From the NCBI GenBank assembly GCA_019054805.1, contig JAHQIY010000001.1, forward strand, positions 8,880,501 through 8,944,500: DNA of 64,000 nt, in the 5' to 3' direction. Every line of letters starts with the position of its first letter. The stretch's first letter is position 1. A model generated the notes under the pieces. It made no database searches. It had not been told where the DNA came from and saw nothing but the letters and a program-made list of their open reading frames with translations. Source of the DNA: Brachionus manjavacas. Lineage: Eukaryota > Rotifera > Eurotatoria > Ploima > Brachionidae. This document shows positions 7,688-62,175 of the stretch, in pieces. The position numbers and the translations under genes were made by a program.

Positions 7688-8734
7688 AATTCTAAATCTA
7701 ATATTTAGTTGCTAATGCTTAATTTTCTTAAGTTATAGCTGGCAAGAATTATGTTAAAAGTAAAAAATCTTTTTTAAAAAATATTTTCATTCTGTTATTT
7801 TGGATTTTATTTCCGCTTAAAAATTTTTTTTAAATTTTTGTTCTCTTTGATTTGTGCCTATAAATTCTTATCATCTTAGAAGTAATTGTAAATTTGTATT
7901 TGATAAATATTTCATTTTTTTTCTTTCGTTGTTTTACTTAGATTTTGAAAAAAATAATTTTAAATAAATTCTTTTAAACAATTTATATTATTTCACTCGA
8001 ACTAATTTATTATTCATCTTTTTTTCAAATATTAAAATTTTTTTTATATCAATATTTAGATAAAAAATATCGTGCAATAAACTAAGATTAAAAATATTCT
8101 TCAAAATCCCTGTGGAGCATAAGGCATTCATGCACCTACTCTATTCTATCCTAACCATCTATTTAAAATGTCCTTCTCCAGATCATCTTTGGTCTTTCTC
8201 AATTTCTCTTCCCTTGCTTGAATCGCATCTGATCCTGCTTCTTTCCTACTATTTAAGATTTAGACATCCATCAAAATTTCCAATTCCATTTCATTTTACA
8301 TCTTTATTTTTGCTGCTGTACTCTCTTTATCCATTCAGTTTATGAACGTAGTAATTTTTTCATGAGTTTAATTGCTAATCTATTCTCTCCTTGATCCACT
8401 CAGATATGCAAGTGTGGCATCAGCTGCTTAGGAATGTGTCTTTGATGACATTTTTTCTCCTGCAAATACCCTATCTTAGTTGGAAGATAAACTATTTGTC
8501 AATGTCAATTTTTAGAATAAAAAACAGCATACAATTAAGCTGGCTAATTGTTCAAGATTAATTACTAAAATTCGATGGGATATATATTAAATTACCATTA
8601 TATAAGAGCGCTGAAAATATTTTGAAAATGTGATTTTGAATATTAAAATTAAAAAATTATATTTAATGCAAACATAATTTTTGGATGTGTCTGCATCAAT
8701 AAATGTAGTTCTTCCCAATTTCTTAAGCATTTTT

Positions 8735-8838
8735 TTTCACCTTTTCTTCCATTTCCTCTCATTTTATTCTGCTTTTCATCTGAATTGGTTTCCAAATCTG
8801 AAGGAGATTCGTTTTCACCTTTTCTTCCATTCTTTTTG
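8735..8838 (-). repeat. Orphan inverted copy of the 96-bp coding repeat
   Basis: On the minus strand this reads KNGRKGENESPSDLETNSD followed by EKQNKMRGNGRKGE, nearly the same as one repeat unit of the secreted protein encoded at 10532-12025, and also close at DNA level. The flanking sequence shows no signal peptide or promoter, and the frame runs on into unrelated sequence. It is a dispersed fragment, not a gene, about 1.9 kb from the array and in opposite orientation. Confidence 0.85.
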
Positions 8839-10402: not shown

Positions 10403-10500
10403 CTTATCTCTAGCCAATGAATAATGAATTCGGTATGAAATCAAGAGCAATAGTCTAGGGATTTAAAATTAATCAACCTTTTAATGCATTACTATATAAT
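10403..10500 (+). promoter_or_regulatory. Promoter module of secreted repeat gene A
   Basis: In order: CTTATCT (GATA-factor type, minus-strand AGATAAG) at 10403-10409, GCCAAT at 10413-10418, TTAATCAACCTTTT at 10469-10482 and a TATA-like CTATATAAT at 10492-10500, 31 bp before the start codon. The same elements in the same order and spacing precede the paralog at 16933 (GATA to TATA: about 90 versus 93 bp), which is the main evidence that they are functional. Confidence 0.65.
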
Positions 10501-10531
10501 AAAACATTAATTTTTCAAATACCTAAAAAAA

Positions 10532-12025
10532 ATGAAATCTAAAATTATATTAATTTCTGTTTTCGTAATAATAGTTTTAGTTTGTGAAATAAGCAATGCC
10601 AAGTCAGTTGATTCTAGTGTGGAAGTTTTAAAAAGTAAACAAAAAAATAGATCAAGTAACAAAGAAATCCAACTGAATGATGAAGAAGATAATGAACAGG
10701 AAAAAAACAGTGAAAGTCGAAAAAAAAATAATGGTGATGTTAAAAAGAATAATAACGAAAAAATAATATCAGATAAGGTAGTTGAAAAGCAAAATAAAAT
10801 GAGAAGAAATGGAAAGAATGGAAGAAAAAGTGAAAATGAGTCTCCTTCAGATTTAGAAACCAATTCAGTTGAGAAGCAGAATAAAATGAGAGGAAATGGA
10901 AGAAAAGGAAAGAATGGAAGAAAAAGTGAAAATGAGTCTCCTTCAGATTTAGAAACCAATTCAGTTGAGAAGCAGAATAAAATGAGAGGAAATGGAAGAA
11001 AAGGAAAGAATGGGAGAAAAAGTGAAAATGAGTCTCCTTCAGATTTAGAAACCAATTCAGTTGAGAAGCAGAATAAAATGAGAAGAAATGGAAGAAAAGG
11101 AAAGAATGGAAGAAAAAGTGAAAATGAGTCTCCTTCAGATTTAGAAACCAATTCAGTTGAGAAGCAGAATAAAATGAGAGGAAATGGAAGAAAAGGAAAG
11201 AATGGGAGAAAAAGTGAAAATGAGTCTCCTTCAGATTTAGAAACCAATTCAGTTGAGAAGCAGAATAAAATGAGAAGAAATGGAAGAAAAGGAAAGAATG
11301 GAAGAAAAAGTGAAAATGAGTCTCCTTCAGATTTAGAAACCAATTCAGTTGAGAAGCAGAATAAAATGAGAGGAAATGGAAGAAAAGGAAAGAATGGGAG
11401 AAAAAGTGAAAATGAGTCTCCTTCAGATTTAGAAACCAATTCAGTTGAGAAGCAGAATAAAATGAGAAGAAATGGAAGAAAAGGAAAGAATGGAAGAAAA
11501 AGTGAAAATGAGTCTCCTTCAGATTTAGAAACCAATTCAGTTGAGAAGCAGAATAAAATGAGAGGAAATGGAAGAAAAGGAAAGAATGGGAGAAAAAGTG
11601 AAAATGAGTCTCCTTCAGATTTAGAAACCAATTCAGTTGAGAAGCAGAATAAAATGAGAAGAAATGGAAGAAAAGGAAAGAATGGAAGAAAAAGTGAAAA
11701 TGAGTCTCCTTCAGATTTAGAAACCAATTCAGTTGAGAAGCAGAATAAAATGAGAGGAAATGGAAGAAAAAGTGAAAATCAAACTGTTCCTATTACAAAT
11801 ATAACAAAAGATTTTAATAAGACATTAAGTCCTCTAACAGAATCAACTTCACCTTTCACATCAACTGTTACCATATCTTCATTTTCCACTTATACGTCTG
11901 CAGATAAAGAAACTTTAAGTGCAGAAGAACCTGAGAGTGAAGAAGCTATCACTGTAACTACACAATCAGTTTCCTCAACTTTGCAAAAAAGTCCAGCTAT
12001 TGAAGAAGTTATTACAAGCAATTAA
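10532..12025 (+). CDS. Secreted tandem-repeat protein A (unknown function)
   Basis: A single exon encoding 497 residues. Residues 1-23 form a typical signal peptide (Lys, then IILISVFVIIVLVCEIS, cleavage probably after SNA). An acidic/basic linker follows. Then come ten repeats of about 32 residues plus a partial eleventh (about residues 85-415), each with a basic half (RGNGRKGKNGRKS) and an acidic half (ENESPSDLETNSVEKQNK). A Ser/Thr-rich mucin-like tail ends in SAEEPESEE and SPAIEE. Both ends match the paralog at 16933-17967. There are no Cys in the repeats. It is likely exported and extended or disordered: a matrix, adhesive or cuticle component, or a peptide precursor, are all possible. 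The family is not one I recognise. The reverse strand is also open through the array, but only because the repeat length is divisible by three. Confidence 0.8.
   Translation: MKSKIILISVFVIIVLVCEISNAKSVDSSVEVLKSKQKNRSSNKEIQLNDEEDNEQEKNSESRKKNNGDVKKNNNEKIISDKVVEKQNKMRRNGKNGRKSENESPSDLETNSVEKQNKMRGNGRKGKNGRKSENESPSDLETNSVEKQNKMRGNGRKGKNGRKSENESPSDLETNSVEKQNKMRRNGRKGKNGRKSENESPSDLETNSVEKQNKMRGNGRKGKNGRKSENESPSDLETNSVEKQNKMRRNGRKGKNGRKSENESPSDLETNSVEKQNKMRGNGRKGKNGRKSENESPSDLETNSVEKQNKMRRNGRKGKNGRKSENESPSDLETNSVEKQNKMRGNGRKGKNGRKSENESPSDLETNSVEKQNKMRRNGRKGKNGRKSENESPSDLETNSVEKQNKMRGNGRKSENQTVPITNITKDFNKTLSPLTESTSPFTSTVTISSFSTYTSADKETLSAEEPESEEAITVTTQSVSSTLQKSPAIEEVITSN
10784..11775 (+). repeat. 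96-bp tandem array with 192-bp higher-order unit
   Basis: The EKQNK codons recur at 10784, 10871, 10967 and then every 96 bp to 11735. The first unit is 87 bp and lacks RKG. From 10967 on, two unit types strictly alternate: one encodes MRGNG and carries GGG in the AATGGGAG codons, the other encodes MRRNG and carries GGA. The true recent unit is therefore a 192-bp dimer, repeated about four times with no other differences I could see. This points to recent unequal crossing-over or conversion. Confidence 0.95.
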
Positions 12026-12255
12026 AAGTTGATTTACTTAATTATTATATCCTATTCATATATTAAAGATAATTAATTTTTTTTAAATTTAAAATTAGTA
12101 ATAAATGTAAAATTATTTTAATACTTTTTGCATATTTAATCTTTAATTAAATCTTAATTTTTCAAATTAAATTGTTAATTAGTAAAATAATGTACGGCGT
12201 TAATTTAATTTATCATTATCGTTAATTAGAAAATATTTATAAATAGTATCATAAC

Positions 12256-12788
12256 AATTTGTTGGCAAATCTTTATAAATCTTTAGTTGGTTCAATTCTA
12301 GACTATTCGTTTCCTTGCTTGAATTCATTTTCAGAAAATAACATCAAAAAGTTACAAGCAATTCAGAATACAGCAGTCAGATCCATCCTCAGATTAAAAT
12401 ATGATACTCCCTCCAACATCGTGCAGCATGAAGCTTTTAATAAACTAAAATTACTAACAGTCTCGAATCGTCTTTTTGAGTTGAGTGAGAAATATGTTGG
12501 GACAGAACTGAGTCATTCTATTCCATTGGTTGAAAGACTGGTGAAGGAATACAAAGAAGGTTTCGAATCAAGATATATTGAATACCCAACTCCATTGTGT
12601 AATTGCTACTTTACTATTTCTTCTTTTTTTCCTGAAACTTGAAATATTTAAACATATGTCACATGTAACAATCTTTTCCAATTTATGTCTTTTCAACTTT
12701 CATTTTTATTTTATTTTTTTTATTTTTAACTTATTCTGAAGGAGCTTTAGCTCGGTACAGAAAACAAATAAATAAATAATAATAATAG
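12256..12788 (+). mobile_element. 5'-truncated non-LTR retrotransposon (LINE), 3' end
   Basis: An open frame (12259-12642) encodes the C-terminal end of a LINE reverse transcriptase protein: ANLYKSLVGSILDYSFP, then NNIKKLQAIQNTAVRSILRL, then RLFELSEKYVG. It has no reverse transcriptase core, which is the usual 5' truncation. The 3' part carries GGAGCTTTAGCTCGGTACAG (12741-12760), a potential small hairpin, and ends in an AATA/ATA microsatellite-like tail. The same 20-base signature recurs at 34870-34889. Confidence 0.8.
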
Positions 12789-12789
12789 T

Positions 12790-13085
12790 TTCAATAGTTT
12801 ATTAATTGATTTTAGAAGGCTTGAGCGAACTCTTTTGCCTTCAAGTTAGTTGGTAGTTTAATTAATCAGTTTATAATATTTACAAGTAAAAGAAATAAAA
12901 TAAGAAAAAATAAAAAAGAGAGATTAAACGAGTCTGTTGAGTAATTCTAGAGGAGTATTTCTTTTGGTTGTTACTGTTTGATTTTCGATGAGTTTTAAAA
13001 TTAGAGGGTTACGATTTAATATATTTTTTTCAAGATACTTTTCACTAAGTGAGTAAATGCGATCATGAATAGTTTCAATTTCGTT
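12790..13085 (-). mobile_element. Second 5'-truncated LINE copy, inverted
   Basis: The minus strand from 13085 to 12924 encodes IHDRIYSLSEKYLEKNI followed by NPLILKLIENQT and RNTPLELLNRLV, then stop: the very C-terminus of a LINE protein, homologous to the RLFELSEKYVG region of the neighbouring plus-strand copy. The 3' UTR includes a GAAGGC/GCCTTC hairpin (12815-12842). The two copies meet tail to tail at a shared ATA-rich microsatellite near 12765-12790. They are different subfamilies. Confidence 0.7.
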
Positions 13086-13227
13086 TCAAAATAATAATAA
13101 TATTTTTTTAAATTAAATATGTAGCTTGCTTTTTTTCAAAAACAATAGAATCATTTCTATTTTTTGTTGGTAAAAATCAATTCTCTAAATTAAAATTATT
13201 ACGGATGTGTCATCATGTGAATAAGAT

Positions 13228-14019
13228 GGTAGAGATTCAAAATAGCAACAATTAAAATCGCAAAGGTAAAAAAAACAAGATCAAAATAGCAAAATATAAT
13301 TAGCAAAAAAATTTATTTAAATAGCATGGATTAAAATAGCAATTAAGTTTATCTGAAAAAAAAATCGATTAAGAAGATAATTAGAAAAACAGTGTCAATA
13401 TTCTAGAATAGATGAAAGGTCATCATAAAAGCTGTCATATTTATCAAAAGAAAAATCTTTCATTATTTCTTGTATTCTCTCATCGAGTAAAATGTACAAT
13501 GGGGCTCTTTTATACGTGATACCTGTTCGCAACTGGAAAATAGTGTCCTCGCACTTCTTTTGCTCTTTTCTAAAAGCGTCAACCAATGAATAAACTAATG
13601 GATGGTTAGTAAACATACCGCTAAACGCATTGTGCCATGCCTCAACAAAGTTGTTGGTGCGTGGTAAACAATCATTGATTCTACTATTTACATTCCAAAT
13701 ACTAATGTCAAAAAGAGGTTTCTTATAAACTGTTGTTGTTCGTCTATTTTTACCTCTCCCGACTTCTTTCTCTTCCTAATAACCGATCCATGTTTCTTCC
13801 ATATACTTAAAAAAAGTCAGAATATCTGGAAAGTGATCCCAACATTTGTTTTGATTTGATTTCCTTAAATTTCAATGGAAAAGTACCCTTTTTTGTCTTA
13901 CTTAATTAAAATTAAAAAAATGATCTTGCTATTTATTTTTGCGATTTATATTTGTTTGTTATTTTAAATGTGCTAATTTAATCTTGCTATTTTATTGTAT
14001 GCGATTTTAATACAGAGCC
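13228..14019 (-). mobile_element. Mutator-like (MULE) DNA transposon remnant with TIRs and 9-bp target duplication
   Basis: The two ends are long imperfect inverted repeats built of ATTAAAATCGCA and AAATAGCAAGAT-type words (left about 13228-13345, right about 13920-14019). GAATAAGAT occurs directly outside both ends (13219-13227 and 14020-14028), a 9-bp target duplication as expected for Mutator-like elements. The interior holds the C-terminal part of a MULE-type transposase on the minus strand. At 792 bp with a stop in the transposase, it is a deleted, non-autonomous copy. Confidence 0.8.
13395..13840 (-). pseudogene. MULE-type transposase C-terminal fragment
   Basis: The minus-strand translation contains KYMEETWIGY, a stop, RTTTVYKKPLFDISIWNVN, LPRTNNFVEAWHNAFSGMF, and then HPLVYSLVDAFRKEQKKCED through to a stop at 13395. 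The RTNNxVEAWHNAF block followed by a short helix ending in KEQ is typical of the FLYWCH-linked MULE transposases of animals. The catalytic core upstream is missing and one in-frame stop is present, so it cannot make active transposase. Confidence 0.7.
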
Positions 14020-14028
14020 GAATAAGAT

Positions 14029-16790
14029 AATCTATTCCAATATGATTTGGGATAGTATTATTTTTTGGTAAGGATTGATTTTTAGCAGAAAGAATGAAAT
14101 GTGAAGCCGATGACGTCAATGAAAATTTTTAGAATGAAAACTCATTAATGAGAGCCCCTGAATTTCTAAATAATGGATCTAATGTCGTTGAACCCAATAA
14201 AAACGAGTTTGGGAAAAAATTAAACAAAATTTGAATCGGATATAAAAAATTATACTTAGGGAATGTAATTATTTAAGTAACGATGACAGAATTTTAACAT
14301 TAAAATAAAAAAAAATCTAATTACAAACCAACAATAATTAAATTTGATAACTGATATTTTATTTGATCATTAATATTTCTCTGTTAAATAAAATTATTTT
14401 TTTCTAAATTAGGTGAAGAATATTTTGTTTTATATTGTTTCATCATCAAAGTTTAAAAAAATTCAATTTTTTCAATTTAATTTAATGAATAAGAATTTTG
14501 TTTTTGTAATTTTTGGACGGTTTATATGAAAATTCACAATGCACAATTTTTTGCAGATACAAATTTTACCGTACAAAATTTAACTTTAATTTAAACTATT
14601 ATTTATCTAAATTTATATTCAAATTTGATTAAAATGATTAATTAATTGACTTCGTTTCTATTCCAGTACATTGTCGCATTTTGTCTTTTTAATTTACGTT
14701 TCCGTTCTTAATGTCCTTCTTATTCCTTTTGTTAGATTTTAGAAATTCAAAGAATAATTCTTCAATAAACATACTTTATTAAGCGAATACAAATCTTTGA
14801 TTTTAATTGAAAATTTTTTATTTAATGCAAAATTAAAAATTAAGATTTTTTTACGTTTCGGAAAAAAGTAGCACAACATAAAGAGCATTTATGACAGGAC
14901 TATTATTAATCTTAAATATTAATATTAAAATAGAAATATTTCAAAAGACTTTTCTAATTTTTCATACAATTTTTTACGTTTTATTGCTGTATTTTAAAAC
15001 ATCGAAAATCTTAATTATTTGAAAAAATTCAAATCTTCGGTATTTATTGTCGAAATTGCAAATTAATAATTTACACACCTATGAAGATTCTCAAATTTGA
15101 TAAAAAGTTAGTACTTAAATGATAAAAAAATTACACTTGAATTTTTTTTTTAATTTCATTTGTAATTTTATAGTACAATTATAAAATATTTCACGACATA
15201 AAACTTTATTTCAGCTTAAAATTTAAATTATCAGTGGAAAACTCCTCTCTGTTTTAGATTTAACTTCTTCTAAAAACAGGCACCAAAATTTAGCTTAGTT
15301 CTGATATTCAATTATTTTATTATTTATCTATTTGATAATTAATGAACATTTTAAAAACATTAAAAATAAAAAAAAATTGCACATTTGAAAGTGGAGAAAA
15401 TACATTAATCAGAAATTAGTTATACTTAATTATACTTCAAAAATAAATCTAAATTCTTAGTAAAATATTCAAAATCTTATATCTTATAAAAGTGGTTCTT
15501 ATTTTTTTTATCATATCTTAACATGAAACATATCTTAGATTCGACTAACTTTGTACTCTTGTATTTGAAATTTTGATTCATTTTCATTTAGATCGAATTA
15601 GTCAAAAATGGAGTCCAACAATGAAAAAAATCCAAGCTAAATAAAGCAGCGATATGTTGAATTGCATATTCATTAGAATTTATTTTCATTACAAAATTTT
15701 TTTTATCAGAATAAATTTTTAGCATCCGAAATTTCTAATCAATAAATAAGTTTTCAAGATTTTCTAAATTTATAAATGATTATTTTATTATTTATTAATT
15801 AATCTTAGGGGCATTTTAAAAAAAAAATGAATAAACAAGTTTAAATTTTAATTGTAATTGTATTCAAACATGAACTTAAATATTTCAAGATTTTTAAACA
15901 ATCGTTTCATTTTGGTTAATTAATTTGCATAAAATTTTTTTGAAATAATCAATGTTTAAATTAATTTAAGTAATTTTTTCATTTTTTTGTTTGGAATTCA
16001 TTTTTGTTATGATTTTTTATTTTATTTTCGACAATTAATTTTGAAAAATTAAAAAATTCATATTGTATAATTATTGATTAATGCTCTTCATTTTTTACAT
16101 CAAATGTCATAAATATTTGATATTTAAGATCCTGAAATAAATGGATTTTTGTTTGATGTTGAAATTCTGAAAATTCTAAAGACCTTCCGTTAATTCTGTA
16201 AGTCCGAGTTTACAGTACAAAATTATAAAAAAATTCATTACTTCTGATCGAAAAATTGGATGAAATAGCGACAATGACAAGATTTCTTATATTTTTAAAA
16301 TTTTAAAATTATTATCAAATTAAAAATCACTATTATTTTGAAATGGTCAGATTTTTGCTATCTGAGATAAATTTTCGGACCTCAAGTTAATTAAGAAATC
16401 GAATTTACTTTATTAAACGAATATAAAAATAAAAAAATCAAATAATACTACAGCTATCAGTTAAAATGAATTCAATTTATAATAAAGGAAGTAAAAAAAA
16501 TTTTTATTTTCAAATTATTTTACATTTTTACAAGGCGTAAAAATCTTTTGGAACACTTCACTGAAACACTTCATCATATATTTGGGATAATGAAATAAAA
16601 ATGATAAACAAAAAAAAATATGGTAGTACTTGAATTTAATCTTTTATTTATCTGAAGATGATTTTATAAAAAATTAATTGACCCTTATTTTATGAAGTTT
16701 TTTCTGAAATTTGCCCAGATTGCTGACTTATCAATAAATGAAAAATGTTGGTTCGCAAAAGCAGAAAAATAAATTAAAATCTATGTTTAT
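14029..16790. other. Gene-free AT-rich region
   Basis: 2.8 kb without an open frame, splice-site-bounded coding block or transposon end that I can support. One perfect TGACGTCA palindrome sits at 14111-14118. It may be spacer and distal regulatory DNA for the paralog at 16933. Confidence 0.5.
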
Positions 16791-16892
16791 CTTATCTTTC
16801 GCCAATCGATTTCAAGATGTTTTAAAAATGAAAAGCGATACTCCATCTAGCCAAATATGATTAATCGACCCTTTGCTGTTAGGCTATAAATA
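16791..16892 (+). promoter_or_regulatory. Promoter module of secreted gene B
   Basis: CTTATCT at 16791-16797, GCCAAT at 16801-16806, TTAATCGACCCTTT at 16861-16874 and CTATAAATA at 16884-16892, 41 bp before the start codon. These elements match the promoter of paralog A in identity, order and spacing while the sequence between them has diverged. Confidence 0.7.
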
Positions 16893-16932
16893 GGCGTTCA
16901 TATTTCTAAAATTCATCAAAAAAAATCTAAAA

Positions 16933-17967
16933 ATGAATTCAAAACTTCTACTAGTCTCAGCTTTTGTAATATTTGCAATTGCTTGCCAGAGCGATGCCAA
17001 GTCAATAGGTTCCGAAGTGGAATTATCAAAAAAGGAACGTGGTATTAGAGTTTTAAAAAAAAGAGGAACAAACAACAGTGGTGAAGAGAATGATGAAGGA
17101 TCTCAACCAAGTGCAGAAGGCCAAGAAAGTAAAAATGACAGTCAAAGTGAAAGTAACAGCCAGAGTAGTGCAGAAGCAGGAGAGGTGGAAAACCAAGAAC
17201 AGGAAAATGAAAATCAAGAACAAGAAATTGAAAATCAAGAGGGAGAAGAAAAAAAAGAAAGCAAAACAGAGTCCAATACTAAAGTAAAATCAGAAGAAAC
17301 TCAAAATTCAGTCAAAAATACTGAAAAAAATGAAAAAACGGAGAAAAAAAAAGGCTGTCCATGTAAATCATGTCCAAAGAAAAACTCAGCTTCAGAGCCA
17401 TCCACTCAAAGTTCACCAACCAAGTGTCCTTGTGAAAATTGCCCAAAAAAAAATACTAAAGGTTGTCCGTTTATGAGAGGTCTTTTGAACAGAACTCAAG
17501 ATCCAATTGCTGCTGTGGCTACCGAATTTTTAAAAGCTCTTAAAAACGCTTTGAATGGCACAAATTCTAGCAGAAATATAAACATTGTTGTAGCTATAGC
17601 TGGAGCAGGTGGCAATGTACAAATCAACAGTGCTGATGGAAATGTAACTTCTTCGGGCAATGCTAGTGTTAAAGTTATCAAAATTGGCCAAAGTCAAGAA
17701 GCAAATGTTTCGAATGAAGTTACTGAAACTGAAGTTGAAAGCGCCGAATTGACCACTGTTTCCCAATCACTAAGTGAGAACACTGTTGAATTAACTGTTG
17801 TTCCAAATGCTGCCGAATCTGTTGTATCCAGTACTGTCACAAGTCAAGAAACAACGAGTGCAGAAGAACCAGAGAGTGAAGAAACTACAACTGAAGGTGC
17901 CCAGCCAGTCTTAACAACAACAGCACAAGAGAGCCCAGCTGTAGAAGAAAACACTGTTAGTGCTTAA
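16933..17967 (+). CDS. Secreted paralog B with CPCxxCPKK motifs (unknown function)
   Basis: A single exon encoding 344 residues. The signal peptide (LLLVSAFVIFAIAC, cleavage probably before KSIGSEVEL) is homologous to that of the protein at 10532-12025, as is the C-terminal tail (SAEEPESEE and ESPAVEE). The middle is different: a Glu/Gln/Asn/Ser-rich segment (about 50-130), then two copies of a Cys motif, GCPCKSCPKKN and KCPCENCPKKN, and a third GCPF. After these comes an uncharged block rich in Ala, Gly, Val and Asn (NIVVAIAGAGGNVQ) with several NxS/T glycosylation sites. The Cys motifs could bind metal or form disulphides. It was probably made by tandem duplication, with replacement of the central exon content. 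It has a good TATA box and probably strong tissue-specific expression; the function is unknown. Confidence 0.85.
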   Translation: MNSKLLLVSAFVIFAIACQSDAKSIGSEVELSKKERGIRVLKKRGTNNSGEENDEGSQPSAEGQESKNDSQSESNSQSSAEAGEVENQEQENENQEQEIENQEGEEKKESKTESNTKVKSEETQNSVKNTEKNEKTEKKKGCPCKSCPKKNSASEPSTQSSPTKCPCENCPKKNTKGCPFMRGLLNRTQDPIAAVATEFLKALKNALNGTNSSRNINIVVAIAGAGGNVQINSADGNVTSSGNASVKVIKIGQSQEANVSNEVTETEVESAELTTVSQSLSENTVELTVVPNAAESVVSSTVTSQETTSAEEPESEETTTEGAQPVLTTTAQESPAVEENTVSA

Positions 17968-18089: not shown

Positions 18090-18128
18090 AAAATTAGTAG
18101 AAATAAAAATCTTCCTTGGTTATAATGT

Positions 18129-21100
18129 CTATAACTTTACATATTGAATGGCGTCTAGTGAATTTACAAGCATTAATTTTCCTGGTTCGAATATTAGATC
18201 GACTAAAAAATATTTGAGAGAACCCTTTTAGAAAAAAAAATAAAATTAAAATTGAAATTTGATAAAAAATAATTTTCTCTCTCCTGTTATTAAAAAATAA
18301 AAAGCTCACGTTATCTTCTTTTAGAGCAATGGTGTTCCAGGCGCGATTGTAGTCTCCCCTTTCGAGTGATGCTCGTATAAGGAGACGATCCGCCAGTACT
18401 TTGAACAAAAAAGCTCTGTGATAAAAAGTTCCCAAGCGAATTCTTCCGATCGGAATAATATTTGATTTAAGTTCATATTTAATTTCATTTATTAACAATT
18501 CATATCCCATATTGGCTACATCATCTCGGCTCATGCTACCTCCCAATTTATCAGATACAAATCTAGCTAAATTTATAATTTGCTCTTTTAGTGGCAAATA
18601 TTGAAACAGGTCTTTCACTTGGTCAATGTAAGCTTTTAGATCCTTGTCAATAACAGGCTTAAAAGAATCCATTCCGTAAATAAACTTTAAACTAATGTTA
18701 AAACCTAATGAAATTTTTATTAATTTTACTTGTTCTTTTATCAGAGTTGTTTCTTTTGGTCTCATTTCATCAGGAACTGCGTTTATATTTGCCATCGAAC
18801 CACGATGAAGGTCTTCAGATGATTTCTTATGATCACTTTTTTCTTTCTTACCCTTGCTAAAAAAGATTTTAATCGGTGTAAAAATTAAACAAACAAGCGT
18901 TTTTTTTTAGCATAAGTGACTGTTAATAGAAAAAAAATTAAAAATTTCAAGTCCTTAGGTCAAATGGGCAAAATTTTTTTATCATTGAAAAAAAAAAACT
19001 TACCCAGAATCTTCTCTGCTAATTTCAATTGTTAAAAAGATAAAGTTTAGTTAATTTTAATAAAATGTAAAGAAATCTATACTAATATTTAAAAAATTAA
19101 CTAGCAAATTGATTAATAAAAACCATTTTCTATTAAATTTGATTAAATTTGATTGAAATTAATAATTTAAATAGCTTTTATTGATCACATGATTACGTGG
19201 AAGTTTTAATTAATATTTCCAAAATATTTTAGTATTTAAATGCTGGTTAACTAAATCACATTTTGGAATATTTTGGATTTGGATCAAGGATTAGATTTTT
19301 TTAGGAATCAAAGTAATTAGTTGACACAGATAGGTGAATTGTCCAAAAAATTTTGTGTGTTTGAGTGAATTTTTAATTTAGAATTGACCCAAGATCAAAA
19401 AATTTTGAACCAAGGATCAATTAAAATCAAGGGATTAGTTTGATCAAAGCTAAATTACTACAGCTAATTATTTATACATAAAACTTGCCTCATTTTACTG
19501 TCTCTGTCTTTTTCTTTATCTCGTTTAGTACCAGAGCCAAGTTTAGACTTGCTCTTTGTTACACTCTCTATTTTGGACTCATTTGGGGTAGCTGGTTTTC
19601 TGCATACAAAAAAGATTTTAAATTAAAAATAAATTTAAGATATTCAAGTTTAAGATATTAAGTCATCATAGCCGAATTCAAACAGTCTAAAAGATGTTTT
19701 TTTGTTTAAAAAATGGAATTTTAGGGCTCTTAAGAAATTAAGCCACTAGAATACCATTAGAGAGTTTCAAAGATTTATTTTATTCACATATAAAGTGCAA
19801 GCCAAGATTTGGTTAATAAAACTCACTTAGATACTGGGATTGGGACTGTTACAGTTACAGATTTAGAATTTCTAGATTGCCAGAAAAATTCAGAAAAACG
19901 ATTTTATTTTTTACACTAGAATGGCCATGTAAATTATTATTTTATCAGATAATTTTTGTTTTCAGGTCTATCTAGTGTAAAAATTAAAAAAAAAAATCAA
20001 ATCTTACTCTTCAGTAGTGTAGACAATAATTATAGGGCGTTTATCGTTCACCGGCATCTGACTTAGTTCGTCCAGAGTGTAGAATTTTCCATTTGGCCTC
20101 ATTGGACCCATATCATAGAAACCGTCGCGAATAGTGTCGATAGGCTCTATTAATTAAAATTTCTAAAGATCTAGCATTTTCTTTGCTTTGGATATACCTA
20201 AAAAGTTTTTAAGTGCATATTTTGCTGAAAGATTAGATTCCAGTAGTTTCCTCAAAGCCGATTCCGTAAAGCTACTCTTACGTTTTTCTGACTGATTTAT
20301 TTCTCTCAGAGTTTCAATTGCTCTACAAAGAAAACATTTTTAAAAATTAAAAAATTGTTAGATCGTAATTTTTACACAAAATACAGGTAAATTGAATTGG
20401 AATAAAATATGTTCATAATGAAAATGAACGATTGATGGCAATGTTAAAAAAGATAAAGAAATAAAAGGAAGTTCATTTACAAATTAATTTTTTAAAAGAT
20501 TAAATTTAAAAGTATAAAAAATAACCAATCTAGAATAGATCATTCTTAAATAACACATTTCTTTTATGCTATCGTTATCTTAAAAAAGATTAGCTACTGT
20601 TTAAAAAATAAAATAAAAACAGTGGAGGAGACAGATTTTTAAAAATTTTTGATAGAAAAAAAATCTTTACATCAGAGTTGTTCTAAAGTGACAAAGTCTC
20701 AAAGCCAAGTGAAGTCAAGTTCCTGAGCAGCTTTAAAAAGACTTAAAAAATTAGTTGATAATATTTTTTGCACGAGTCTGTTTACAAGATTTGAAAATAA
20801 TTAAATTTAATTTAAGAAATTAATTTATCTAGTTAGCAAATCACATAAATTAGTAAACTTAAATTAATTTGTTAAATATAGTTATCCAAATCATAAACGT
20901 TTGTCAGACATCAATATTTTCGAATCTAATAAATTCAATGGTTTTCTTTAAAAAAGGTTGGTAGATTTTTTTCAATTCTTGGGAAACATTTTGTAAATTA
21001 ATTCCAATTATCTGAGTTTAAATTAAAAGATATTTTAAATTAGTATGTCTCATATTGCGGTTTGTGATTTGGACCACTTTAAAATAAATTTAAATTTAAA

Positions 21101-23568
21101 AAAACTTTTTTTGTTTACTGTTTTTCGCAGGGAATTGTAGGTTCTTTTTTTTAAAACTAAGGACTTTTAAACAAAATTTTAATTCATTTATTTGGAATTA
21201 GATTTATCGTAGACAATTCTTGGTTTTTCTTGGTTTCACTTTTGCAAAAATTAATCAAAATATTTTTTGATTTAAATTTTGGCCTCGAGCTATATATTAA
21301 AAATATATTTTATCAATATAAATGATTTTTTTGTCAAAAATGGTTCAAAAAGTAATCTAAAAAAAAAAACAAATAAGACCTAAAATTTTCTGATTTGACT
21401 TGACTTAAAATTTTTGCTTAGACGAAAGTATGCTTTCATATACAATTTTATATCAATGACTTAACATTTATATTTTCAAATTAAATTCAAGCTTCAAATA
21501 TAAAATTTTTGTGTAAAAATTTATTAAAATTGGAGCTAACCCGTGTTTGCAATATTCCACGGCAATAGCAGGATCAGATGAACTATTGGTAATGGCCCAA
21601 CAAGAATTAAATCTTACATCATCATTATTTGATTTGATTAATTGAGCAATAATTGGTATCACTCCGTACAATTTTATCTAAATTTTTCAATTTAATTTTG
21701 CTTTTAATTTAATAGAGCTTGACTTACTTCATTTCTTATCAGAGAGTCAACACAATATGAAGCTATTACCAAACAGGCTTTTGCTTGGGTAAATGTATTT
21801 CTTCAAAATTTTATTTAAATAATTATAAATTTAAAAGGCTAACAAAATTTACGAAGAATTTAATGCTGGCAAAATCGATTGACTCAAGGAATATTGAGCA
21901 ACCTCCTCTCTAATAATTTCATCAGCCGACATGTTAACTAAGCAGATGCATGCATAGGCCTTGGTTGTATCTTTTTCGTCTTTTAAAAGGTTAACTATCG
22001 GTTCGATTCCTTGAAAGCTTAAGATATTTCTCCAATTATTGGTATTTTTGAAAGTTAAATTTGACAGAGCTAAAGAAGAGTGCTCTCGAACTTTGGGATT
22101 CTCAGATGTTAAAAGTCTAATTAAAATTTCGATTCCCTCTTTATAACAAAATTAAATTAATTTTTTTTTTAATTTTTTTTTACCATAATTTCTAATTGCA
22201 TCTTGACTGAAAGTACTTTCGGCCATGACAGATAAAGCATGCGAAGCAGCTGCTTTTGTTTCATCATTGTCACTCAGTAACAAATAAACAAGGATTTTTT
22301 CTGCAAATTGTTCATTTAAAATTCTTCGGTTTTCAGCTAATTAAAAGATTTAATTAAAAATCTAATATTTTTTTTTTACTTACGCTTTCTAGCTGATCTA
22401 GCTAAAGCTCTAGCAGCAGCGGCATTTACCAAAGTCATTTCGGTTTCTTCAGATAGGTCTTGACAAAATATCAATAATTTGTTTAAACCACCGGTTTGTT
22501 GTATCAGCTTTTCAATAAAAATTAAAAAAAAATTAATTATTAATTTTCTTAATACGTCTAAACACTGTGTATCTTCTAGACAATTTGATAAAACACTAAT
22601 ACAATTAACATGCATGTCTTTATACTCAGAGCAACCAAGAAACTCAATTAATTTTTCAACTCCACCAACTTCTCTTAATGCTTCTCTATTTTCAGCTTAA
22701 AAATAAATAAAAATCTTTTAAAGAATTCCTAATAGCAAATAAGATAAAATAATACCATTTTGTGTAATCTTTATTAAAGTGCTAAAAGCAGTTTCTTGTA
22801 TTTGTGGAAATTCCGATTTGATTAAGCTAAGAATGGGCTCGATTCCTTTAAGATCCTTGATCTGTTGTCTCGGTTGATAATCTGCCATCAGTTTGTCCAA
22901 GCAGCCAAGTGAATTGAAAACAGCATCTGGATCTTTAGCACTTAACATTGTTATCAAAGAGGACATGGCACCTGAACTTGATGCCATTAAATTTTTGGTA
23001 CTGTAATCTTCTGACATGTTTTTTAGCCACATGGCAGCATACTCATTTGTTAAAGGGTCGTAATCTGAGCTTAGCAAAGATATCATTTTTTCGATATAAA
23101 TTGAGTCTTGGCGGAGAAATTTTCGAATATCAGCATGAGCTGACAAGAGACCAAAAACCATGGTAGAATTTCGAAGTATAATTCGGTCCTCATGACTTGT
23201 TAATGCAAATATTTTAGGTGTCGCACCGAGTTCATGCACAGCAAGTTTATTTCCATCACCTTAAGGATCATATTTAAGAAAAAAGAATTTTGATCCAATT
23301 TAAAGATTACTTTTTTCACAAAATTTAAAAAGTGATTCACATGATTTTTGTAAAACTTCTTCTTCAGGACTGTCAAGCATCAAAACAACTGTATTGGCAT
23401 TACGAGCATCGACTTTGATCGGCTCAAACTTTTTAAAAATTTATGTAAACAATTATATTTGAATAAAAATTTGAATAGAATAAAACTTACTGATTCATCT
23501 AGAGTTTTTTCTTCTTTAGGATTTTTGCCAGGCTTGGCTGTTTTAGCCTTTTCTTTTGTAGCAACCAT
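18129..23568 (-). CDS. ARMC3: Armadillo repeat-containing protein 3, 16 exons
   Basis: ARMC3 pairs N-terminal armadillo repeats with a C-terminal EDR1-type domain, and is typical of ciliated and sperm cells. Exons (5' to 3' on minus): 23568-23491, 23428-23311, 23259-22756, 22695-22556, 22507-22384, 22336-22184, 22138-21853, 21800-21728, 21677-21541, 20322-20198, 20146-20008, 19871-19827, 19599-19489, 19015-19004, 18856-18310, 18224-18129. All phases close, giving 895 residues (human about 870). Arm repeats run from about 50 to 540 (e.g. LIQQTGGLNKLL, NAAAARALARSARK). A charged Lys/Ser linker covers exons 12-15. The EDR1 domain includes LARFVSDKLGGSM, GRIRLGTFYHRAFLFKVLAD and LVDLIFEPGKLM. Exon 13 appears to use a GC donor (ATGAG/GCAAGT) before a 12-nt microexon. 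The start follows a Lys-rich N-terminus. Confidence 0.9.
20323..21540. other. Long intron of ARMC3
   Basis: At 1218 bp this is the longest intron in ARMC3. A stretch AAGTCTCAAAGCCAAGTGAA near 20693 and a GACTTGACTT word near 21395 look faintly like inverted transposon ends, but I cannot define a target duplication or coding content. Confidence 0.3.
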
Positions 23569-60864: not shown

Positions 60865-60888
60865 TCTTGGTAGCAGCGATAAGTAAAA

Positions 60889-62175
60889 ATGTCCACAATG
60901 AGTTTCTTTTCATTGCCAATATCCATGGAATATTGCGAAAGTTTGCCCGTTCAGGCACTTGTTCACATGGTAAAAGCTCAGAACCACTTGGAAACCGATT
61001 TTCACTACCTTGAGGAAAATGGAACATTAGTAAATGGCTCAGAAGTAGAACAAGCTGATTGGTTGGAGAAAATAACGGCTACTAAGGCTCCTAAGAAACT
61101 TTTAATTAGTCTTCTGACTCAAAGAGCGGTACTTGTAGCAAAGAAAAAGGAACAACCAGATGCAAGCCATCAAAATAAATCGACACCCCAATCAAGCTTA
61201 TCAACTACAACGGAAAGTACTCATCAACAAGAGCAAATTATTGAACCAGACATGTCACCAATGGAAAATAGGGTTTTCAATAGACGTCCACAGTTTAAGA
61301 TGGATGATATCCCGAAACTATATGGAAACGACAAAGATAAAATTGAGGAATGGATCTACCTTGTCGAAACAGAGGCGGAAGACCAGGGAATTGATAAAAA
61401 TAGATTAGTCACTGCAGTTAACAAATTTTTAAGAGGTAATGCTTTGCAATTGGTCAGGAATCTTAAGAAAAAGAAAGAAAACCTGACATGGGTTGAGTTG
61501 AAATCTCACCTGTTGGCCACTTATAAGCCAGACGATGTCCAAAGAACTTAAAGATCCGAATTTAAGGCAATCAAATTGAACGTGAATTATGAGGAAAATG
61601 TTCTGAAATTCCAGCAAATTGCCAACAAAATCGAAAAAATAGATGAGTTCGAGTTGGTTTGGATGTTTTTTGACGCGGTTGACCCCCGCGTTAGAGCTGA
61701 GTTGGAAAGCAAAAATGTCAAGACACTTGACGATGCTATAACTCAAGCTAGGATATTCAGTAGGAGTACGTGGAGTGTTAATAAGCCAGTACCCGTTTAT
61801 TATTCAAGAAACAATTATAAGAAGCGCTTAAAATCATTCTATAACTTAAGAGAGAAAGAAGTTGATAGAGGAAAAAACTTAAATAATAAAACAGATGATA
61901 GAGGTAAAATCCCTGTCTGTTACAGATGTAAAAAACCAGGTCACATTAAAGCAGATTGCAAAGTGAAATTGTTTAGCGGCGAGAACAATAACAAATCAAA
62001 TTATGGAAGGAATCAGAACAAAGGAAAATGGAGCAACCCGAAGAAATCATACTTAGCAGAAGAAATGGAAGAACCAGAGTCAAACAATCGTAATCGTGAT
62101 ACTGAATACGTATACGTTTGCACATCAGGTAACTTACTGAGAATAAATGGTACGTATCACTTGATCATCAGTTGA
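60889..62175 (+). pseudogene. gag of the Ty3/gypsy-type element
   Basis: A gag-like protein starting MSTMSFFSLPISMEYCE. The capsid-type region includes IPKLYGNDKDKIEEWIYLVE and NKFLRGNALQLVRNL. A TAA at 61549-61551 interrupts the frame, which continues in phase through FQQIANKIEKIDEFELVWMF. It reaches one zinc knuckle, CYRCKKPGHIKADC (CX2CX4HX4C), and stops in the fold-back terminus. Protease and reverse transcriptase are absent. The otherwise clean frame suggests recent insertion. Confidence 0.8.

Follow-up and report, generated by a model that had tools for sequence, protein, structure and literature searches.

Spidroin-type silks carry conserved ends, which are folded helical domains, around a repetitive core that changes freely. 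In the rotifer Euchlanis, disordered multi-copy repeat proteins occur in a secreted biopolymer, identified only in E. dilatata (PMC12154537), and sabellariid cement packs oppositely charged proteins with phosphoserine, for which FAM20C kinases have been proposed (PMC12621633). The rotifer Brachionus has the secreted proteins MMR-A and MMR-B, with a signal peptide and nearly identical tandem repeats (PMC3495898). These last features recur in g1, one of two neighboring genes, g1 and g2, in a 64,000-nt stretch of the Brachionus manjavacas genome (the window, G000:C1:8880501-8944500); the two are alike in promoter, signal peptide and tail, and unlike in the middle.

Two tandem paralogs with related promoters and ends

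The genes g1 (10532..12025, + strand) and g2 (16933..17967, + strand) are single open frames of 497 and 344 residues which, read from the DNA, are uninterrupted between ATG and stop and require no intron; their starts lie 6.4 kb from each other. An earlier reading of the letters alone (the sequence-only reading) had paired them by a common signal peptide and tail around unlike middles, a charged tandem repeat in g1 and Cys motifs with a neutral domain in g2, and this description holds. In g1, a signal peptide ending ...SNA before KS is followed by a charged pre-repeat region, an array of 32-residue repeats, and an acidic, Ser/Thr-rich tail bearing N-glycosylation sites (sequons); in g2, a signal peptide ending ...SDA, again before KS, is followed by an acidic Glu/Asn/Gln/Ser linker, a Cys-rich stretch, a small alpha-beta domain, and an acidic, Ser/Thr-rich tail. 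Judged from these signal peptides by eye rather than by a predictor, secretion of both products is likely.

By local DNA alignment, the N-terminal ends score 36 (dinucleotide shuffles: mean 16.0, best 27) and the C-terminal ends 60 (mean 19.6, best 30), with none of 300 shuffles reaching the observed score at either end; the middles (score 34, reached by 17 of 100 shuffles) and the 3′ flanks (36, reached by 46 of 300) do not match. At the protein level, BLASTP aligns g1 residues 1-34 with g2 residues 1-33 at 50% identity (E 3e-07). The conserved tails (11885..12022 in g1 and 17830..17964 in g2, both +) are 42% identical in a MAFFT alignment, with an invariant SAEEPESEE followed by SPAIEE in g1 and SPAVEE in g2.

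The likeness extends to the promoter blocks (10403..10531 for g1, 16791..16932 for g2, both +), which contain, in the same order, CTTATCT (10403; 16791), GCCAAT (10413; 16801), TTAATCAACC (10469) or TTAATCGACC (16861), and TATA (10493; 16885). CTTATCT at 10403 is AGATAAG on the opposite strand, which we take to be a GATA-type site. Identity between the two genes is 10/10 bases from CTTATCT to GCCAAT, 56/60 from GCCAAT to TTAATC, 24/24 from TTAATC to TATA, and 39/48 from TATA to ATG. The local alignment score of 37 is reached by none of 300 dinucleotide shuffles, by a narrow margin (mean 22.8, best 36); in a full-length alignment between CTTATCT and ATG (129 and 142 bp), 88 of 126 aligned bases are identical (~70%), with a score of 98 vs. 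73 for the best of 299 random window pairs. Farther upstream, at 200-1000 bp, the genes do not match (score 33, reached by 52 of 100 shuffles). The sequence-only reading had seen an ordered promoter module here: the words and spacings are indeed common to both genes, but as parts of one alignable homologous block of ~130 bp rather than as separate words. Because the likeness stems from duplication, it is not by itself proof of common tissue expression.

In the whole genome (114.17 Mb, 61 contigs), a promoter pattern of fixed GATA-CCAAT spacing plus TTAATC has two sites, those of g1 and g2, with 0.07 expected from the base composition of the window; a relaxed pattern has three, the third being an unrelated locus, downstream of which no 50-codon frame begins for 600 bases. 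Queried at E <= 10 with the N-end of g2 or of g1, the genome yields two loci, the query and its partner (E 0.0023 and 0.0050, respectively), and C-end queries from both genes, up to E = 10, return the same two loci, with the partner at E 0.013 and 0.014. A degenerate 27-mer from the C-end, allowing up to three mismatches, has four sites: only g1 and g2 match without mismatch, and the other two (2 and 3 mismatches) sit in unrelated proteins. That two separate ends should each pick out the same neighbor in 114 Mb by chance is very unlikely. By these alignments, g1 and g2 are tandem paralogs, with common descent of promoter, signal plus pro-region, and tail.

Whole-gene queries are less sensitive than the ends (as partner, g1 is not returned at E <= 0.001, nor g2 at E <= 1). 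The whole-g1 query at E <= 1 gives 12 matches: 10 inside g1, an inverted unit at 8734-8835 (see below), and a weak one in contig C3 (E 0.45; 50 residues at 39% identity, with an internal stop), which we take as a chance match. The N-end, C-end, 27-mer, and promoter-pattern searches found no further family member in this genome, the protein searches being made exon by exon in six frames with the best candidates scored, so that a strongly diverged or split member could escape. The broader secreted family expected by the sequence-only reading, which had itself set whole-genome searches for end motifs and promoter as a check, thus comes down in this genome to the pair. Its remark that no described family has these ends is borne out by a Pfam search of both proteins, in which no family was accepted for either. 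Among the papers listed in searches of open-access literature by topic terms, not by protein sequence, none describing the pair was noted, and the available part of a paper on secretory lectins of rotifers (PMC8878817) held nothing fitting g1 or g2. A ZFHX3 C2H2 zinc finger (PF24056) was rejected for g1: its 34.3 bits lie over the 27-bit cut-off, but no single stretch passes (the best is of 7 residues), and g1, with no His and its one Cys within the signal peptide, lacks the zinc-finger residues of this family.

The two ends have diverged over their 79 aligned codons by 0.35 nonsynonymous (dN) and 1.07 synonymous (dS) changes per site, a ratio (omega) of ~0.33 that is rough with so few codons. 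Its bootstrap median is 0.32 (95% 0.16-0.61), and none of the 495 usable replicates of 500 is at or above 1.

Middles, charge, and modification sites

The g1 array (10802..11776, +) holds 10 full 96-nt (32-residue) units, SVEKQNKMR[G/R]NGRKGKNGRKSENESPSDLETN, with two unit types arranged A A B A B A B A B A; the mature chain has 67 residues ahead of the array and 82 behind it. Units are identical within type, save for one base in the last; because of this near-identity, the array was expanded as 192-bp doublets, or homogenized, very recently, with an assembly effect possible. On the estimates given above, the ends evolve under constraint at dS near 1, and the array is far younger.

A single, inverted copy of the unit lies outside the genes (8734..8835, -; 102 nt, 93% identical); the 71-codon frame that contains it has neither signal peptide nor tail. 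To judge from this copy, unit DNA can move without the gene ends. Four of its six differences are silent, vs. 18.6% expected (P = 0.013, post hoc, uncorrected, and ignoring transition bias), which hints that the g1 repeat is protein-coding and under constraint. The sequence-only reading had the middle evolving freely: the middles are indeed unalignable, but the ends are constrained (omega 0.16-0.61) and the g1 repeat perhaps is too. The edges of the stray unit carry AG and GT dinucleotides, which would permit an exon of an unseen gene.

The middle of g2 includes a Cys-rich stretch (17344..17472, +; KKKGCPCKSCPKK...KCPCENCPKKNTKGCPF; residues 142-178) with seven Cys and a CPCxxCP motif, and a small domain (17461..17703, +; residues 177-257). 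Predicted alone, the latter forms one helix and four strands at a mean predicted local distance difference test score (pLDDT) of 70.8, with 83-87 in the blocks that cover its first strands; comparison of this model with known folds gave no convincing match. AlphaFold2 on mature g2 alone gives a mean pLDDT of 48.8, with 182 of 322 residues below 50, which from a single sequence is weak evidence of disorder; the g2 tail is modeled at low confidence and without structure.

Mature g1 (474 residues) has a computed isoelectric point (pI) of 9.85 and a net charge of +30, with +35 in the array (pI 10.3) and -7 in the tail region. Mature g2 (322 residues) has a pI of 4.66 and a net charge of -20: -13 in the acidic linker, +9 in the Cys stretch, +2 in the small domain, and -18 in the tail region. 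Both are hydrophilic (grand average of hydropathy -1.85 for g1, -1.01 for g2). There are 14 sequons in g1, of which 10 are the NES of the array units with Pro next, and a Pro after a sequon disfavors glycosylation; g2 has eight, five in the small domain and a sixth just beyond. S-x-E sites are present in both tails, including the SAE and SEE of SAEEPESEE, with more elsewhere, although so short a motif is weak evidence alone. The genome has a FAM20C kinase gene at one locus (PF06702, E 6e-80, above cut-off).

The frames between the two genes, at 12247-12642 (+) and 13395-13775 (-), have no Pfam match; the first resembles the C-terminal end of a non-LTR (long terminal repeat) retrotransposon and the second a transposase fragment. 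The second is flanked by 65-nt inverted repeat arms (13251-13315 and 13947-14011, 74% complementary), possibly the ends of a DNA transposon. Directly downstream of g2, a frame at 18097-18906 (-) has an EDR1/CTR1/ARMC3 peptidase-like domain (PF14381, E 3.5e-15), and beyond it are frames at 21849-23260 (-) that by reading only are armadillo-like. Retroelement gag-like frames at 60883-62175 (+) have a CCHC zinc knuckle and a weak Retrotrans_gag match, below cut-off.

Possible roles of the pair

The block shared by g1 and g2 is best read as kept by selection for the site of production, the route of secretion, and the modification or packing of the protein end. The reading we favor, tentatively and at somewhat less than an even chance, is that the two proteins, so far seen in this genome alone, are secreted, largely disordered phospho- and glycoproteins forming an extracellular gel, adhesive, or surface coat. 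Through the shared GATA/CCAAT/TATA promoter, both products would enter the secretory pathway in the same cells, glandular or epithelial, where the FAM20C-type kinase of this genome might phosphorylate their S-x-E sites, those of SAEEPESEE included, and where sequons and Ser/Thr-rich stretches of both chains might be glycosylated. The g1 product would be a polybasic repetitive chain and that of g2 an acidic one with Cys cross-link sites, while the shared phospho-tail might bind calcium or the partner chain. The middles would change through repeat expansion and homogenization, with the ends retained for secretion, processing, and packaging. The opposite net charges hint at joint assembly of the two chains, by analogy with sabellariid cement (PMC12621633). 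It is conceivable, but improbable, that duplication of an ancestral secreted phosphoprotein here produced a charge-complementary pair, polybasic g1 and acidic, Cys-bearing g2, co-secreted from the same promoter and condensing with each other and with calcium into an extracellular material, with the phospho-tail as a common assembly tag; if so, this would be a simple route from a single duplication to a two-part biomaterial.

Several observations weigh against a gel, adhesive, or coat. Neither chain is simply one-signed, the Cys stretch of g2 being basic and the tail of g1 acidic, and two low-complexity proteins may come to differ in the sign of their charge by coincidence. Many glues are rich in Tyr or His, unlike these proteins: there is one Tyr in g1 and none in g2, and no His in either. 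Words as common as GATA and CCAAT sites point to no tissue by themselves. In Euchlanis, SCO-spondin has been put forward as the main component of the biopolymer (PMC12154537).

One alternative, which we think unlikely, makes g1 a multi-copy peptide precursor, its NGRK sites cut at RK and the products amidated to give ~10 peptides ending ...KMRGN or ...KMRRN, and g2 a diverged prohormone with KKR after a short pro-region. The signal peptide, the near-identical copies, and the two GRK motifs in each full g1 unit would fit such a precursor, as would LKKRG at g2 residues 41-45, but g2 has no GRK at all, and the 32-residue units of g1 are equally conserved throughout, with no spacer more variable than the core. 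A conserved acidic tail of ~46 residues is also atypical of precursors of this kind.

Proteins of a mucin-like or lubricating coat on gut or other epithelium, in which glycosylated stretches act and the charge difference is incidental, are a doubtful second alternative. Pre-tail sequons are present in g1 (NQT, NIT, NKT) and g2 (NRT, NGT, NSS, NVT, NAS, NVS), Ser and Thr together account for 35 (g1) and 32 (g2) of the 100 C-terminal residues, and a GATA-type site is compatible with gut expression; however, the g1 repeat is basic rather than Ser/Thr-rich, and a search for mucin-type Pfam domains found none at E <= 1.

It is quite improbable that these are drifting, weakly used orphan genes, from an old duplication whose ends were left by chance or recency. 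Low-complexity middles and a stray repeat unit nearby might be expected of such genes, but the frames are intact over 497 and 344 codons, omega is below 1 in every usable bootstrap at dS ~1, and the promoters are still 70% identical between unalignable flanks. We give very little credence to a surface recognition signal like MMR-B, with repeats homogenized by concerted evolution: animal group, signal peptide, and near-identical tandem units are common to g1 and mmr-b, but unit length and sequence differ, g2 has no array, six protein queries from g1 and g2 gave no match at the mmr loci, and two mmr-b loci (located below) lack CTTATCT, AGATAAG, and CCAAT in the 400 bp leading up to the primer site, with one ATTGG in one of them.

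CRISPR editing (PMC10395877) and whole-mount in situ hybridization (PMC13161344) both work in Brachionus manjavacas, and a tissue and a phenotype for the pair are therefore within reach. The pair offers a two-gene case for what selection keeps in a secreted disordered protein (promoter, secretion signal, and tail) and what it lets change.

Comparison with described secreted repeat proteins

The mmr-b primer 2MRPs2 (PMC3495898) has one exact match in this genome, on contig C7, plus two at one mismatch. On that contig (G000:C7), two of the three loci translate to MMR-B, at ~5.018 Mb (5 repeats) and ~5.027 Mb (3 repeats), ~9 kb apart; the remaining match is on the opposite strand, at 5.124 Mb. 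Because 3 and 5 are the repeat numbers listed for B. manjavacas RUS (PMC3495898), these loci place the genome in the Brachionus plicatilis complex, most likely in B. manjavacas. Full MMR units are 261-276 bp (~87-92 residues) and unrelated in sequence to the 96-bp g1 unit. In MMR proteins the repeats follow the signal peptide and close in a terminal repeat (PMC3495898), whereas the g1 array is flanked on both sides and g2 has none. No tail or promoter words shared between the MMR genes and the pair were seen, and only g1 of the pair has an array.

With sabellariid cement the pair shares probable secretion and opposite charge, a trait of sabellariid-type coacervating pairs (+30 and -20 by calculation for mature g1 and g2); where the cement has phosphoserine and FAM20C (PMC12621633), the pair has S-x-E sites and its genome a FAM20C gene. 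This is analogy, with homology not claimed, and phosphorylation and adhesion of the pair are putative. Spidroin-type silks differ in that the tail of the pair is short, acidic, and Ser/Thr-rich, and the cores of the two paralogs are of unrelated kinds; no folded terminal domain of spidroin type was found in the Pfam search of g1 and g2. The Euchlanis biopolymer proteins (PMC12154537) resemble the proposed products of the pair in being rotifer-secreted and disordered with a multi-copy motif, but the motif they carry, STTRPTGTT, is absent from g1 and g2. Secreted orphan paralogs whose ends are conserved around variable, repetitive cores form a familiar class, and g1 and g2 appear to be another example of it.

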